A stretch of 64,000 bases of DNA from Azospirillaceae bacterium (GTDB lineage Bacteria > Pseudomonadota > Alphaproteobacteria > Azospirillales > Azospirillaceae): contig JAPWJW010000001.1 of the NCBI GenBank assembly GCA_028283825.1, forward strand, positions 1,984,001-2,048,000, given 5' to 3'. The notes below the pieces were generated by a model. The model was not told the origin of the DNA. It was given only the letters and a program-made list of their open reading frames with translations, and ran no database searches. Below are positions 5,328 to 51,327 of this stretch, piece by piece. A program made the position numbers and the translations under genes. How positions within the stretch are numbered: the first letter of the stretch is position 1; each line of letters starts with the position of its first letter.

Positions 5328-5347
5328 TATTATAGACACGCCAGCGG

Positions 5348-5501
5348 CATGAGGCTTCGGCTCATGCGGTGTAGGCCGCGACTGCGGCCGCCGGAGCTTT
5401 CCGGGGAGCGATAGCGGATCGGAAAGCGAGGACAAGGCAAGGGCCCGGATGGGCCCGCCCGCCGATTGAGGGGGCGGTTGATCGGTCACGATCAACCGCC
5501 A
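5348..5501 (+). repeat. Structured intergenic repeat, copy 1 (complete, with GTCA-loop hairpin)
   Basis: This copy fills most of the space between the convergent oxidoreductase and sensor kinase genes. From 5' to 3' it has a hairpin GCATGAG/CTCATGC (5348-5368), GTA plus stem GGCCGC/GCGGCC, the island GCCGGAG, stem GCTTTCC/GGAAAGC around an 18-nt loop, the island GAGGACAAGG, stem GGGCCC with loop GGAT, a CGCCC stem ending in TTGAGG, and an 11-bp terminal hairpin GCGGTTGATCG with loop GTCA. The same order recurs at 23718-23871 (reverse), 25655-25785 and 49226-49348, with compensatory base changes in the stems. I do not recognise it as a named family. Confidence 0.85.
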
Positions 5502-5507
5502 CAAGTA

Positions 5508-6596
5508 TCAGGCTCGCGGCAGGATGATCTCAAAGGCAACGCCGGTGGGTTTCACCGGCTCGGTCTTGACGTCGCCGCCGTGGGCGCGGGCGATGGCCTG
5601 GACCACGGCCAGGCCCAGGCCGGTGCCGCCGCTGATGCGGGCGCGGGATTCGTCCGCCCGCCAGAAGGGGTCGAAGACGTAGGGTTCCATGCCCGGCGGC
5701 AGGCCCGGCCCCTGGTCGGCCACACGCAACAGCACATGGTCGCCCACGGCCCGCGTCTCCACCCGCACACGGCCGGGGGAGGCATAGCGGCGGGCGTTTT
5801 CCAGCAGGGCCAGCAGGGCCTGGCGCACGCGGGCGCCATCGGCCACCACCAGGACGGGGGCCAACGCCGTATCGATGGCCAGGCCGGCGGCGGCGCAGGT
5901 GGGCCCCACCATGGCCACCACGGCCGCGGCCTCCACCGCCACGTCCACCTGTTCGCGCCGCAGATCCAGCCGGCCGCTTTGCGCCAGGGTCAACAGCTTC
6001 AGGTCATCGACGATGCGGGTCAGCAAATCCACCTGCCCCACCAGGCCCCGGAAGGCCGCCATGTCGGGCTGGAAGACGCCGTCGGCATAACCCTGCAAAC
6101 GCCCGCGCAGGATGGTCAGCGGCGTGCGCAGTTCATGGGCGATGGCCACATTCCAGGTGCGCATCTCAATGGCCGCGCGCTCCAGCTGGGCCGCCATGGC
6201 GTTGAAGTCCTGGACCAGCTGCTTGGTTTCCTGGAAGGAATTGCCGTCCACCCGCGCCCGGGCCGTCAGGTCGCCACCGGCGATGCGCTGGGCCGCCCCC
6301 GCCACCGCGTCCAGCGGCGTGATCAGCCGGCGGGCGAAATTCACGGCCGCCCGGGCCGCCATGGCGACACCGACCATGCCCAGCGCCGCCGTGACCGTCC
6401 AATCCAGCACATGCTGCCAGATTTCCGGCGGATGGTGGGTCAGTTCGGGCCACAGCCGGAACATCACGGTGAAGAAGATGGTCAGGCCCGTGGTCATGAA
6501 GACCAGGGCCAGGCCGGTCACCGCCGCCATGGAATGCACCAGCTGACGGTTCAGGCCCGTCGCCCGCGTCCAGCCCACCATGTCCCTCAATGCCAT
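5508..6596 (-). CDS. Two-component sensor histidine kinase (AdeS/BaeS-like), last gene of RND efflux operon
   Basis: A 362-residue inner-membrane kinase with transmembrane segments at about residues 24-46 and 66-84 and a short periplasmic part between them, then a HAMP region (about 85-140), the H-box AIAHELRTPL with phospho-acceptor H154, and an ATPase domain with N (LLALLENARRYA), G1 (VADQGPGLP) and G2 ([10 protein letters not shown]) boxes. It lies 16 bp downstream of the OmpR-type regulator gene and, with it, at the end of the RND pump unit. This matches the known pairing of AdeRS with AdeABC, though the order differs. It probably senses a substrate of the pump or envelope stress. Confidence 0.9.
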   Translation of the reverse strand: MALRDMVGWTRATGLNRQLVHSMAAVTGLALVFMTTGLTIFFTVMFRLWPELTHHPPEIWQHVLDWTVTAALGMVGVAMAARAAVNFARRLITPLDAVAGAAQRIAGGDLTARARVDGNSFQETKQLVQDFNAMAAQLERAAIEMRTWNVAIAHELRTPLTILRGRLQGYADGVFQPDMAAFRGLVGQVDLLTRIVDDLKLLTLAQSGRLDLRREQVDVAVEAAAVVAMVGPTCAAAGLAIDTALAPVLVVADGARVRQALLALLENARRYASPGRVRVETRAVGDHVLLRVADQGPGLPPGMEPYVFDPFWRADESRARISGGTGLGLAVVQAIARAHGGDVKTEPVKPTGVAFEIILPRA

Positions 6597-23669: not shown

Positions 23670-23717
23670 CATTCTTTCGCAGACGCACAAAAGTTGCACT
23701 GACTGATCTTATACGCG

Positions 23718-23871
23718 CGGTATTTGAACGTGACCGTTCAAATACCGTCCCTCAAGTGCCGGGCGCGACCCTCCGGCCGCTTGGCTTCCTCAGTTTCCAG
23801 TCCACTGCGTTCCCCGGAAACTTCCGGCGGACGCTGTCGCGTCCTACAGCGACACGAGTCAGATTCTCGTG
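23718..23871 (-). repeat. Structured intergenic repeat, copy 4 (complete, reverse orientation)
   Basis: On the minus strand the order is: hairpin CACGAG/CTCGTG, GTA plus stem GGACGC/GCGTCC with loop GACA, island GCCGGA, stem AGTTTCC/GGAAACT, island TGAGGAAGCC, stem GCGGCC/GGTCGC with loop GGAG, a CGCCC stretch ending in ACTTGAGGG, and a 13-bp terminal hairpin with loop GTCA (23718-23747). Compared with copy 1, paired bases change on both sides of several stems. It is in the sense orientation relative to the gene that ends at 23881. Confidence 0.85.
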
Positions 23872-23880
23872 CCGCTGACC

Positions 23881-24180
23881 TTACTCGCCGGACGGCGCCG
23901 GGGTCGGGCCGGTGCGGCTGGTGTCGGAAGCCGCCGCCTCGTCCTTGCCCTTCAGGCAAGCTGCGCGGGCCTTGGCCTTGGTCGCGTAAGTTGCCATCGC
24001 GGCCTGGAAGGCGTCGCCATCAATGCTGGCGACCGGATGGGACAGATAACCCAGCGGCAGCTTGGGCGCCGGGCCGCAAGCATCAGCGGCAAACCCAACG
24101 GCGGACCAGGACAGGCCCGCGGCCAGGGCGGCGCCGGCCAGGGTGAGCTTGCGGAGGGCTGTCTGGGGCATGACGGTCAT
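23881..24180 (-). CDS. Secreted two-cysteine hypothetical protein, paralog 2
   Basis: A 99-residue protein starting at the ATG at 24180, which has GAGGAG 7 nt upstream; the open frame begins at 24195. The signal peptide is LRKLTLAGAALAAGLSWSAVGFAA. The mature part starts DACGPAPKLPLGYLSHP and carries the second cysteine in YATKAKARAACLKGK, matching paralog 1 at 22975-23355. The C-terminus is short and rich in Ala, Ser, Thr and Pro, unlike the longer tail of paralog 1. Function unknown; presumably periplasmic. The transcript runs on through repeat copy 4 to the terminator near 23630. Confidence 0.72.
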   Translation of the reverse strand: MTVMPQTALRKLTLAGAALAAGLSWSAVGFAADACGPAPKLPLGYLSHPVASIDGDAFQAAMATYATKAKARAACLKGKDEAAASDTSRTGPTPAPSGE

Positions 24181-24331
24181 CGGTCGTCTCCTCATCGGTT
24201 GTTATCCACAACTGAAAGCGGCACACCGCCCACGGAGCCGGTGGCGCAAAAGTTGCCGGACGGTTACCTTAGCCGCCAGGGAAAATGCCGTGCTGTGACA
24301 AGGCGATGGCTATATCGGAAGGGGCAAGGAC

Positions 24332-25655
24332 ATGCGGCTTATGGGGAAGACTCTGGTTTCTGTGATCGCACTGGGCACGGGCCTGATGCTGGGAGCACCC
24401 GCGCAGGCCGGCGACCGGGAACAGGCGCAGGCCACGGTGGACACCCGCGCCGCGGCGGAACAGCCCAAGATCATCGCCTGGCGCCGCGACATCCATGAGC
24501 ATCCCGAACTGGGCAACCAGGAGACGCGCACCGCCGCCCTGATCGCCAAGCACTTGAAGAGCCTGGGGCTGGAGGTACGCACCGGCGTGGCCAAGACCGG
24601 CATCGTCGCCGTGCTGAAGGGCGGCAAGCCCGGCCCGGTCGTGGCATTGCGCGCCGACATGGACGCCCTGCCCGTCACCGAACAGGTGGACCTGCCCTTC
24701 GCCTCCAAGGTGAAGACCCAGTACAACGGGCAGGAGGTGGGCGTGATGCACGCCTGCGGCCACGACACCCACGTCGCCATGCTGATGGGCGTGGCCGAGG
24801 TGCTGGCCGGCATGAAGGACCAGCTGCCCGGCACCGTGAAGTTCATCTTCCAGCCGGCCGAGGAAGGCCTGCCCAAGGGGGAGGTCGGCGGTGCCGAACA
24901 GATGCTGAAGGAAGGCGCCTTCGCCGACCCCAAGCCGGACGCCGTGTTCGGCGTGCACGTCATCTCCACCCTGCACACCGGTGACGTGGGGTATCGCCCC
25001 GGCCCCTTCATGGCCTCGGCCGATGAGTTCGTCGTCACCGTGCACGGCAAGCAGAGCCACGGCGCCCTGCCCTGGACCGGCGTCGACCCCATCGTCACCG
25101 CCTCGCAGATCGTGCTGGGTTTGCAGACCATCGAAAGCCGGCAGATGGAGGTGATCAAGGAGCCGAGCATCCTGAGCGTGGGCAGCATCCACGGCGGCAA
25201 CCGCAACAACATCATCCCGGACACCGTCACCCTGAACGGCACCATCCGCACCTTTGATGAGGGCATGCGTGCCGATATCGACAAGCGCCTGCGCCGCACC
25301 GTGGCCGGCATCGCCGAATCCGCCGGCGCCACCGCCGACGTGGACATCATCAAGGGTTATCCCGTCACCTACAACAACCCGGACCTGACGGCCAAGATCT
25401 GTGCCCACCCTGCAACGCGTGGCCGGCGCGGAGCATGTGAAGCTGATCGACAAGGTGACCCCGTCGGAGGATTTCTCCTTCTTCGAGCAGGCCGTCCCCG
25501 GCGTCTATCTGTTCGTCGGCATCACCCCGCCGGAAACCGACCTGTCCAAGGCCGCCAGCAACCATTCGCCCAAGTTCTATGTGGATGAGGCGGGCCTGAG
25601 CGTGGGCGCCCGCACCCTGGCCCACCTGGCGGTGGATTATTTGTACGGGATGTAG
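24332..25655 (+). pseudogene. Exported M20-family amidohydrolase, frameshifted near 25400
   Basis: The first frame encodes a signal peptide and most of an M20 amidohydrolase (metal-binding RRDIHEHPELGNQE, ALRADMDALPV, MHACGHDTHVAMLMG, FQPAEEG, then the dimerisation domain HGKQSHGALPWTGVDP). After NNPDLTAKI it loses homology. The second frame, from 25401, continues with PTLQRVAGAEHVKLIDKVTPSEDFSFFEQAVPG and ends at 25655 with the normal C-terminus. One extra base near 25400 explains the break (AAGATC-T-GTGCCC). Restored, the protein would be about 440 residues, normal for hippurate hydrolase-like or amino-acid deacylase members. It is either a recent inactivation or an error in the sequence. 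Confidence 0.88.
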
Positions 25656-25785
25656 CACGGGGGCCGGAGGCCCCGTGCGCCAGGCCGCGACCGTGGCCGC
25701 CGGAGGTTTCCGGGGAGCGGACGCGGACTGGAAACCGAGGACAAGCCCAGCCCGCGGATGCGGGCGCCCGGCGCTTGAGGGCGCT
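25655..25785 (+). repeat. Structured intergenic repeat, copy 2
   Basis: It starts at the last base of the amidohydrolase TAG stop codon. It has hairpin GCACGGGG/CCCCGTGC, stem GGCCGC/GTGGCC with loop GACC, island GCCGGAG, stem GGTTTCC/GGAAACC, island GAGGACAAG, stem CCCGC/GCGGG with loop GGAT, and stem GCGCCC/GGGCGC around GGCGCTTGA. The terminal GTCA hairpin seen in copies 1 and 4 is missing. Confidence 0.85.
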
Positions 25786-49165: not shown

Positions 49166-49225
49166 CAAACGCGCTTGTACCCGCCGTCGGCAATCGGGGC
49201 AAGGGCCGCCTTGCCGGCCCATATC

Positions 49226-49348
49226 AGCGGCATGCCCATGCCGCTGTAGGACGCTCCCCTCGTCCGCCGGAGCTTTCCGGGTAGCGTAGCGGACTGGAAA
49301 GCGAGGACAAGGCCAAGCGGCCGGATGGCCACGCCCGCCGCTTGAGGG
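49226..49348 (+). repeat. Structured intergenic repeat, copy 3
   Basis: It has hairpin AGCGGCAT/ATGCCGCT with loop GCCC, GTA plus stem GGACG/CGTCC, island GCCGGAG, stem GCTTTCC/GGAAAGC, island GAGGACAAGG, stem GGCC/GGCC with loop GGAT, and CGCCCGCCGCTTGAGGG. It ends 3 bp before the 3' end of the DUF885 gene on the other strand, and the terminal GTCA hairpin is absent. Confidence 0.85.
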
Positions 49349-49351
49349 AAA

Positions 49352-51070
49352 TCAACGAGACTGGCCAGCGATCCACCGGTCCATCTGGTCGTGCAGGATG
49401 GCCATGGGCATGGGGCCGTCGTCCAGCAGGGCGTCGTGGAAGGCGCGGATGTCGAAGCGGGCCCCCAGCGCCTGTTCCGCCCGGTGGCGTTCATCCAGGA
49501 AGCGCAGTTCGCCCACCTTGTAGGCCAGCGCCTGGGCCGGCCAGGCGATGTAGCGCTGAGTCTCGCCCACAACCACCCGTTCCGGCAGGGCGGTGTTCTC
49601 CCGCAGGCAGCGTTCCGCCTGGTCGGCACTCCAGCCCTTCCAGTGGATGCCCACGTCCATCATCAGGCGACAGGCCCGCCACATGTCGAAGGACAGGCGA
49701 CCGAAACGTTCATAGGCCGTGCGGTAGACGCCCATGTCCTCGCCCAACTGCTCGGCATAGAGCGCCCAGCCCTCGATGAAGGCCGTCGGTTCGTCCCGGC
49801 GGCGGAAGGCCGGCAGGTCGGTGTTCTCCTGGCTGAGCGCGATCTGCAGATGATGGCCGGGCACACCCTCATGCAGGATCCAGGACGGCAGGCCGAACAG
49901 CGGGTCGCCATAGGATTTGGAGCCGACCACCACCCGGCCGGGCACGCCCTTGGCCGGGTCGCCCAGATCATAGCCGCTGGACGACCCCTCCTGTTCCGGC
50001 GGCTTCTGGCGGATGGTCCAGGTCAAGCGCGGCAGCCGGCCGAACCACAGCGGCAGCAGGCCGTCGATGCGCTTGCCGATCTCACTGGCCTTCTCGACAT
50101 AGGTTTCCAGGTCGGGGGCGTAAAACTGCTTGTCGGTGCGCAGCTTCACCAGGAAATCCGCCATGGTGCCGGTGTAGCCGGTGGCCCGCATGGCCGCCTG
50201 CATCTCACCCTTGATGCGCGCCACCTCGCGCTCACCCAGGGCGTAGACGGCGTCGGGCGTCAGGTCGGTGGTGGTGGAGCGGCGCACGGCGTAGGCGTAA
50301 TAGTCGCGGCCGCCGGGCAGGCTGGCAGCGCCCAAGGCGGCGCGGGCGTGGGGCAGGTACTCCGTCTCGAAGAAGACCACCATCTGGCGCTGCGCCGGCT
50401 TCACCGCCTGTTCCACCGCCGCCAGCGCATCGGCGCGCAAGGCGGCCTGGCGGTCGGTCGGGATGGTGGCGGGCAGGACCTTCAGCGGCGATAGCAACGG
50501 GCTGGCATCCGCCGGCTGGTCGGCCGCCACCTTCAGGATGCCAAGTGCCGAGGCCGCGGTGGGCCGGGGCTGGACGAAACCGGTGGCGATGCCCCGGCGC
50601 ATGTTGTCCGTCTGCTGCGCATAATAGGCCGGCAGGGCGCGCAGCCGCGCGATCCAGGCCTGGGCGTCGGCCTCGGTCCGGATGACGGTGGTGGCGGCGG
50701 CATAGTTGGCGGTGTTGAAGAAGCCGTCGCCATTGTCGAAGGGAATGCGGTCCTCGTCAAACCGGGCGCCTTCCACCAGGATGCCCAGGCGCCAGCCCAG
50801 CAGGCGGCGGGTCAGCGCCTCCTCACCATCCGGTGCGGAGGCCGGCAGATGGTCCAGCCGGTCCTTCAGGGCGGCGTAGGCATGGGCGCGACGATCGGCG
50901 GCGGCCTTGCCCACGTCCGGCCAGCCGGGGCCGTTGTCCGCACTCGTCTCCCGGTCCACAGTGTCGTAGTCGGCGATAAGCTGATCGACGGCGGAGGGCG
51001 CCTGGGCCCGCGCTGGTGGGACGCCCAGGGCAAGCCCCAGAACGCAGAACGCGACCGCCGCACGGATCAT
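49352..51070 (-). CDS. DUF885-family exported protein, putative zinc metallopeptidase
   Basis: A 572-residue protein with a Sec signal (MIRAAVAFCVLGLALGVPPARAQ). The hallmark motif is LHEGVPGHHLQIALSQENTDLP, with H400, E401 and the H406-H407 pair as likely zinc and catalytic residues. C-terminal blocks ALYAEQLGEDMGVY, RACRLMMDVGIHWKGW and RYIAWPAQALAYKVG are typical of DUF885. The family is predicted to be peptidases of the periplasm, but substrates are not known. The ATG at 51070 just before the signal is chosen over the longer frame. A second family member is encoded at 57966-59816 with a different export signal. Confidence 0.88.
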   Translation of the reverse strand: MIRAAVAFCVLGLALGVPPARAQAPSAVDQLIADYDTVDRETSADNGPGWPDVGKAAADRRAHAYAALKDRLDHLPASAPDGEEALTRRLLGWRLGILVEGARFDEDRIPFDNGDGFFNTANYAAATTVIRTEADAQAWIARLRALPAYYAQQTDNMRRGIATGFVQPRPTAASALGILKVAADQPADASPLLSPLKVLPATIPTDRQAALRADALAAVEQAVKPAQRQMVVFFETEYLPHARAALGAASLPGGRDYYAYAVRRSTTTDLTPDAVYALGEREVARIKGEMQAAMRATGYTGTMADFLVKLRTDKQFYAPDLETYVEKASEIGKRIDGLLPLWFGRLPRLTWTIRQKPPEQEGSSSGYDLGDPAKGVPGRVVVGSKSYGDPLFGLPSWILHEGVPGHHLQIALSQENTDLPAFRRRDEPTAFIEGWALYAEQLGEDMGVYRTAYERFGRLSFDMWRACRLMMDVGIHWKGWSADQAERCLRENTALPERVVVGETQRYIAWPAQALAYKVGELRFLDERHRAEQALGARFDIRAFHDALLDDGPMPMAILHDQMDRWIAGQSR

Positions 51071-51327
51071 GTGAGCCCCCTGTTGTGTCAGCCTTATCTC
51101 CGAAGCCTGATGCTTTGGATATTGTATGTCAAATATCTTATCCAATTATCGGCGGCGCATTGCCCCGGGCCGGAGGGCGGCGCCCAACCGTATAAGAGGG
51201 GTACCAGGCAGCCACAGCCCTTCCACGCCGCCACCCCAGAGTCGCCACATTGGCGGCGCATCAGGGGCCATCGGGAAGCATGCCCCCCCTGGGGCGGCGT
51301 CCGATGGTTTCAGTCGAAGAGGAAAGA

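Follow-up and report, generated by a model that had tools for sequence, protein, structure and literature searches.

The 64,000-nucleotide stretch of DNA analysed here (the window) contains four copies of a structured intergenic repeat, at 5348-5501 (+), 23718-23871 (-), 25655-25785 (+), and 49226-49348 (+), as the earlier note had reported. A covariance model (R1) trained on 33 copies from the source genome recovers these four copies and no further ones in the window, copies 1 to 4 scoring 119, 102.2, 106, and 95 bits, and the next best match scores 17 bits; because the four are themselves among the training copies, it is the gap to 17 bits that counts and not the scores. The short conserved islands and paired stem segments quoted in the earlier note are correct but its copy numbering follows another order than its list, such that GAGGAAGCC and the stem AGTTTCC/GGAAACT, given to copy 4, belong to 23718-23871, and the stem GGTTTCC/GGAAACC, given to copy 2, belongs to 25655-25785. 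Its placement of all four copies within about 20 bp of a gene's 3' end is about right.

Copy 1 has a core of three hairpins (H1, H2, and H3) and a TTGAGGG tail at 5372-5473 (+), preceded by a 5' terminal hairpin (H0, CAGCGGCATGAG..CTCATGCGGTG; 5341-5371), read from the sequence and also present as a module in the alignment, and followed by a 3' terminal hairpin (H4, GGCGGTTGATCGGTCACGATCAACCGCC; 5473-5500), likewise a sequence reading. The TCA at 5508-5510, beyond the terminal GTA of copy 1, is the complement of the TGA stop codon of a histidine-kinase-like open reading frame (5508-6596, reverse strand); the opposite end of this copy showed no such triplet. Copy 2 lies on the reverse strand with its core at 23748-23846, H0 at 23847-23880, most of which (to 23874) folds on itself, and H4 with a terminal GCGTA at 23712-23747, as judged from the sequence and its fold. 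It is flanked by a duplicated TAA, one at 23881-23883 (-), which is the stop codon of the open reading frame at 23881-24195 (-), and the second at 23709-23711. The core of copy 3 is at 25681-25782 (+) with a 5' hairpin (CACGGGGGCCGGAGGCCCCGTG) read at 25656-25677, and a TAG at 25653 precedes it. The adjacent M20-peptidase gene (24332-25655, +) is seemingly frameshifted near its 3' end: the open reading frame stops at 25588, and sequence resembling the C-terminus of its relatives runs on in another frame to the TAG at 25653. Copy 4 has a core at 49247-49349 (+) and an H0 read from the sequence at 49225-49246, lacks H4, and ends its core 2 bp from the stop codon of an open reading frame on the other strand (49352-51145).

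We define the element strand as that reading TAGG ... TGAGGG. The core is about 102 nt long and has the order TAG, H1, GCCGGA, H2, GAGGAYRAG, H3, NYTGAGGG, where H1 is a 6-bp stem with the loop GACY, H2 is, on our own reading, a long stem with a GGA/GGA internal loop, and H3 has the loop GGAY and an outer GSC/GSC helix. The three core hairpins have fixed loops and linkers, which are conserved across the class, and GTAG adjoins H1 in many copies; H0 and H4 are present in part of the copies, and the terminal sequences vary between genera while the core is kept. A full copy consists of five hairpins on one strand, H0 bearing a TACC end and H4 a GTA-like end. Judged against the 5th percentile of shuffled sequence (one mononucleotide shuffle per copy), the flanking hairpins are stronger than composition predicts: the 5' 45 nt lie below this level in 54 of the 105 copies from the genus and in 36 of the 79 from the class, and the 3' 50 nt do so in 24 of 104 genus copies and 32 of 79 class copies. 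For copy 2 the predicted fold of the element strand is -79.5 kcal/mol (z -5.6) and that of the opposite strand -69.3 kcal/mol (z -4.2). Tandem copies about 104-110 bp apart occur at four loci (L238, L246, L251, and L261) in Telmatospirillum, Azospirillum sp. RU38E, and Phaeospirillum, and the H1 unit (TAGGCCCCGACCGGG and variants) is repeated in a short tandem run before element 112 of g014b (G014:C4).

The covariation of the core stems is strong at every level of comparison. In a MAFFT alignment of the 33 copies of the source genome, 98.7% of stem cells are paired (82.5% when shuffled), 13 of 26 pairs are changed on both sides, and the covariation score is 0.395, compared with 0.123 for shuffled and at most 0.072 for slid controls. 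For 105 genus copies 99.1% are paired (79.3% shuffled) with 17 of 26 pairs doubly changed and a score of 0.457 (0.126 shuffled, at most 0.067 slid), and for 80 class-wide copies (76 distinct) 98.5% are paired with 11 of 15 pairs doubly changed and a score of 0.390 (0.075 shuffled). The latter two alignments were fitted to the model, and the MAFFT alignment gives the same picture; the class-wide set derives from 64 chosen loci, of which those fetched by pattern had a fixed H3 stem, lowering the variety of H3. G·U cells outnumber A·C cells by 138 to 9, or by 54 to 9 if the one pair that is most often G·U is set aside (these are tallies of cells, not of events), indicating that it is the element strand whose ability to fold is maintained. 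The covarying structure proposed in the earlier note is therefore real, strand-specific, and far beyond shuffled or slid controls, and a covariance model built from the copies and run on the genome and its relatives returns a large covarying family.

The source genome (7.16 Mb in five contigs), which we infer to be of the Nitrospirillum type, has at least 150 copies, all scoring at least 93 bits. Two 400-kb samples contain 24 matches on contig C1 (E below 1e-4) and 67 on contig C3 (E up to 0.001, including one truncated by the end of the stretch and one that overlaps a match on the opposite strand), which puts the genome total at several hundred. These densities compare with 16 matches in 795 kb around the regions of relatives matching the C1 sample and 57 in 800 kb of two relatives for C3. 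No replication-strand bias was found on C3 (81 copies) or C1 (36) among the 150 copies listed. Each of seven genus genomes searched, that of the source included, has at least 68 matches, and matches occur in 34 of the 59 Azospirillaceae genomes, spread over 6 of 13 genera. With a cross-genus model (R2) and a limit of E 1e-4, 33 of the 385 genomes of Alphaproteobacteria match; they belong to 20 families, and three families are represented only by matches between 1e-5 and 1e-4. Genera with one exact pattern, among 80 loci listed of 100 stretches, include Niveispirillum, Azospirillum, Aerophototrophica, Telmatospirillum, Paramagnetospirillum, and Nitratireductor. A blastn search with copy 1 gave no plasmid or phage relatives, divergent members used as queries match plasmids of Azospirillum, Niveispirillum, and Tistrella, and one exact core pattern had no match in viral contigs. 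Upstream of the window are long repetitive stretches at about 1804000-1827000 and 1972000-1983000 of C1, with recurring GTGCCGCTGTTGG words, that we guess to be adhesin-like.

The earlier note recognised no Rfam family in the repeat, and at gathering score the window indeed yields two tRNAs alone (Rfam 15), while 12 diverse loci have no Rfam 15 match. Around copy 1 four weak matches appear at E up to 10, among which CC3552 (15.6 bits, cut-off 50) touches H4. Nor did we see the family described in the open-licence literature, subscription journals and other terms being outside the search.

That note also favoured an RNA structure over a simple mobile repeat, and this opposition does not hold, as the family is mobile too. 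In Azospirillum ramasamyi, where full copies span TACC to about GATGATA, the same 3-bp triplet (TGA, TCA, or TAA) stands on both sides of 13 of the 16 full copies that were parsed, whereas shuffling gives a mean of 7.4 and none of 10000 shuffles reaches 13; this count began with 30 loci, of which 14 were without a parsable right end and two were from a second genome (G018), and one locus (L149), misparsed by the script, matches by eye. Two solitary H0 palindromes (L135 and L143) also have TNA duplications. Among the cases listed of 92 empty-like ones in 237 element-by-target comparisons there are at least three clean empty sites in relatives, with the targets TCA, TAA, and TTA (the empty site of the last being TTG). 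Two of these within the genus have the filled form GGGATCA-element-TCAAATGTCC and the empty form GGGATCAGATATCC, and the filled form GTAA-element-TAAGCGCTATGG and the empty form GTAAGCGCTATGG. Copy 3 of the window is absent from the syntenic place in genomes G020, G029, and G001, and G014 carries other sequence there. The element thus inserts into TNA and duplicates it, and it is both mobile and structure-selected. Its left and right ends are alike by eye at 18 of 23 bases in A. ramasamyi and G018, an inverted similarity that is weak in the source genus.

Insertion into TNA also bears on the location of the copies. Genes were predicted in the first 400 kb of the genome with a simple purpose-made gene finder; of 25 matches there, including a weak one (E 0.074), none is internal to a gene, and two reach into a gene end, by 3 and 40 nt. 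Four of the 16 full A. ramasamyi copies lie exactly at the stop codon with which the predicted gene upstream ends, and in one of these four the stop is the TAA of an annotated coding sequence. Both TAA and TGA fit the TNA target, and insertion at such a stop codon restores it, so that copies collect at gene ends; such insertion is evident for some copies and can explain the gene-end location in general. Class-wide, 130 elements with both neighbours within 600 bp (duplicate records left in) include 48 between convergent genes, 37 and 34 in the two co-directional arrangements, and 11 between divergent genes; the background in 400 kb of the source genome is 49 convergent and 49 divergent among 270 gene pairs.

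These observations have to be set against an ordinary MITE, moved as double-stranded DNA by an IS transposase acting on terminal repeats, whose core hairpins, once transcribed, shield or end the transcripts of its neighbours. The hairpins would then be kept in place because they make the insertion harmless or useful. Such an account is in keeping with the TNA duplication and terminal inverted similarity, with the 48 convergent and 11 divergent copies of 130, and with the transcribed three-palindrome repeats between convergent genes noted for Bradyrhizobium in excerpts of PMC5082802. However, the 5'-side gene is off the element strand in 45 of the 130 copies, such that the selected strand is often not read-through mRNA, no T-run directly follows H3 in 29 copies, and it is the terminal sequences that vary between genera and the core that is kept. 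(T-runs stand before the core in some copies lacking H0, such as L002 and L010.) We regard this account as somewhat unlikely, and further evidence on both sides comes from copies shared between species.

We compared elements that occupy corresponding sites in different species and have homologous flanks on both sides, using 65 of the 67 matches of the C3 sample and, for the stems, 142 of 143 aligned copies. Genomes G014 and G020 share 17 such pairs, of which 9 are near-identical, a small class picked after the data had been seen. In these 9, 207 stem pairs are unchanged, 7 broken, 1 a wobble, and 1 compensated, so stem decay in close pairs goes largely uncompensated, which counts against hairpins maintained in place as in the MITE account. 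The other 8 pairs have flanks 85-98% alike, a divergence broadly similar to that of the near-identical pairs, and yet their loop identity of 0.69-0.90 is that of randomly chosen copies (median 0.81, 95th percentile 0.91). Their differing stem pairs include 27 compensated, 13 wobble, and 7 broken, a pattern expected either of unrelated family members or of fast compensation in place. Copies of the source genome compared with G014 or G020 behave similarly, with 164 compensated, 31 wobble, and 16 broken among differing pairs, and the 31 same-site pairs are near random levels of similarity; H3 is shared in 1 (1.0 expected), H1 in 6 (2.5 expected), and outer H3 in 24 (19 expected), with P about 0.02 for H1 and for outer H3. 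H1 is also shared in 2 of the 8 less similar G014-G020 pairs (0.26 expected, P about 0.02), and in several unlike same-site pairs the 3' boundary is the same by eye to within a few bases.

The predominance of compensated differences in the less similar pairs, together with the H0 of one same-site group (G020, G014, and G029) whose pairs are kept, by eye, through changes of C-G to T-A and of G-C to A-T, fits hairpins maintained in place as the MITE account has it, and if the 8 pairs and those of the source genome descended in place and were not replaced, selection does act in place. As the similarity in most of these pairs does not exceed that of randomly chosen copies, in-place compensation is weakened as an explanation of same-site stem differences. 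The evidence leans modestly towards a fold selected during spread more than as an RNA in place, owing to the uncompensated stem changes in the few near-identical pairs. The inference in the earlier note from compensatory change to selection on RNA or single-stranded DNA structure therefore stands insofar as the fold is selected, but stem changes in close same-site copies are mostly uncompensated.

Within the source genome the hairpins vary almost as separate units. Among 135 copies the stem words of H1, H2, and H3 are nearly independent, at most 1.6 standard deviations above shuffled values, with 52 to 664 of 1000 shuffles giving as high an association, the exception being the two parts of H3 (7 of 1000). 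A weak association between hairpin words is possible, five of six values being above the shuffled mean. The nearest in-genome relative of a copy is 90% identical at the median, and at least 95% identical for 4 of 132. Near-independent hairpins with often perfect stems could also arise in a neutral, decaying repeat in which one arm corrects the other through template switching, giving a compensatory look without selection. We consider this very improbable: the close same-site pairs have 7 broken and 1 compensated change, and the class-wide loops and linkers and the excess of G·U over A·C need selection.

We prefer to see here a mobile, TNA-duplicating, strand-folding element whose fold serves its spread and whose copies are replaced in place, a reading in which our confidence is about even. 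The covariation and the excess of G·U show that the element strand must be foldable. Folding would be required during spread or when an existing copy is overwritten, the folded form being single-stranded DNA or RNA presumably bound by an enzyme supplied in trans; settled copies would decay and be replaced by other family members, and hairpins may be exchanged as whole units. A stronger version, in which a class-wide element spreads and overwrites copies via a folded single strand that an enzyme recognises, with its five hairpins exchanged as cassettes, such that the covariation reflects a mobile intermediate and not a host RNA, we think unlikely. Target duplication and terminal repeats usually denote double-stranded transposition, which needs no folded core, and they count to that extent against a folded-strand reading.

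Two kinds of enzyme acting on a folded strand can be weighed directly. Movement of single-stranded palindromes by a Y1 (TnpA_REP) transposase, as in REP/RAYT systems, would suit the high copy number, the intergenic palindromes, the GTAG beside H1 in many copies, and the single-strand folding, but the source genome has no match to the Pfam profile Y1_Tnp (PF01797), for which 5 of 14 controls including Escherichia coli are positive, and a 3-bp target duplication, present here, is not expected of IS200/IS605-type transposition. We rejected REP/RAYT for the source genome on this lack of a PF01797 match and hold it to be quite improbable. Retro spread, with an RNA copied by a reverse transcriptase following nicking of the target, would account for a strand-specific fold and for the possible replacement of whole copies at existing sites, and the source genome has 11 RVT_1 matches. 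In contrast, no RVT_1 match is found in Niveispirillum cyanobacteriorum (71 element matches) or A. ramasamyi (42, many near-identical). Since a reverse transcriptase is matched in the source genome and unmatched in these two copy-rich genomes it was discarded as the mobiliser, and this route too is very unlikely.

Searches with the Y1 and RVT_1 profiles, of neighbour clusters, and of terminal-repeat loci revealed no mobilising enzyme. Clustering of the neighbouring proteins of 193 elements gave no recurring transposase in the 18 largest clusters (2-6 members each), which on our own reading look like ordinary, unrelated genes. No autonomous copy is present in 28 loci read of the 33 terminal-repeat matches in A. 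ramasamyi, and one large insert among those loci is a separate IS; a terminal-repeat scan of 400 kb gave many chance matches among the matches listed. At one A. ramasamyi locus (L131, near 1448403 of C1) what we read as an IS5-like element, its transposase reading split between frames, lies within the H0 of one copy with TTA on both sides. On our preferred reading the repeat, about 100-175 bp long, is a mobile element that is not autonomous.

The repeat is a MITE/REP-like kind of element. REP and BIME sequences with their RAYTs are high-copy palindromes with mosaic modules and single-strand folding, from which the present family differs in the 3-bp duplication and in a source genome with no Y1 match. 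RIME of Sinorhizobium is another palindromic mosaic lying between genes in Alphaproteobacteria; model R2 finds nothing significant (best match 18.7 bits, E 0.076) in a 100-kb stretch of S. meliloti pSymB assumed to contain RIME. Related kinds (CIR, Br-REP, RIME, and MITEs) are treated in PMC2229807, PMC10969869, PMC1273637, and PMC5082802, and the following comparisons draw on excerpts of these. Br-REP1 of Bradyrhizobium is situated among three palindromes at about 200 sites in 3'-UTRs, with an example between convergent genes (PMC5082802), and the present family resembles Br-REP1 and Br-REP2 as an alphaproteobacterial repeat. The Br-REP1 consensus CCGGAATCTCGAGATTCCGG, however, contains GAATC in its central palindrome (PMC5082802), whereas GANTC is present in none of 33 cores here, and the excerpt of PMC5082802 describing Br-REP mentions no target duplication such as that found here. 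CIR of Caulobacter and Brucella, about 110 bp long, reported to be strictly intergenic, and conserved between alphaproteobacteria, has an RNA structure of separate arms and is defined by GANTC at the loop and two arms (PMC2229807, PMC10969869), in contrast to the three hairpins of the present core. Identity with either CIR or Br-REP1 is thus rejected, as 0 of 33 cores contain GANTC; it occurs within 60 bp of the core in 9 of 25 copies. MITEs such as Correia/NEMIS, RUP, and ERIC are shorter than 200 bp, mostly non-coding, and mostly intergenic, with target duplications and terminal repeats (PMC2229807, PMC10969869), and the present family shares their size, intergenic location, and target-site duplication (TNA, 13 of 16 parsed), with ends that are alike by eye in A. 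ramasamyi and G018. It departs from the MITEs described there in its class-wide multi-hairpin core with strand-specific covariation, in its unconserved terminal sequences, and in that an autonomous partner was not found.

Covariation is the usual proof of a functional RNA, and here it is near-perfect in mobile DNA, a warning that an intergenic motif may be abundant and covarying and yet be a mobile element. The hairpins seem to vary as units, and close copies to decay where they stand. The family provides a system in which to seek the mobiliser, and TNA stop codons offer a simple account of its clustering at gene ends.
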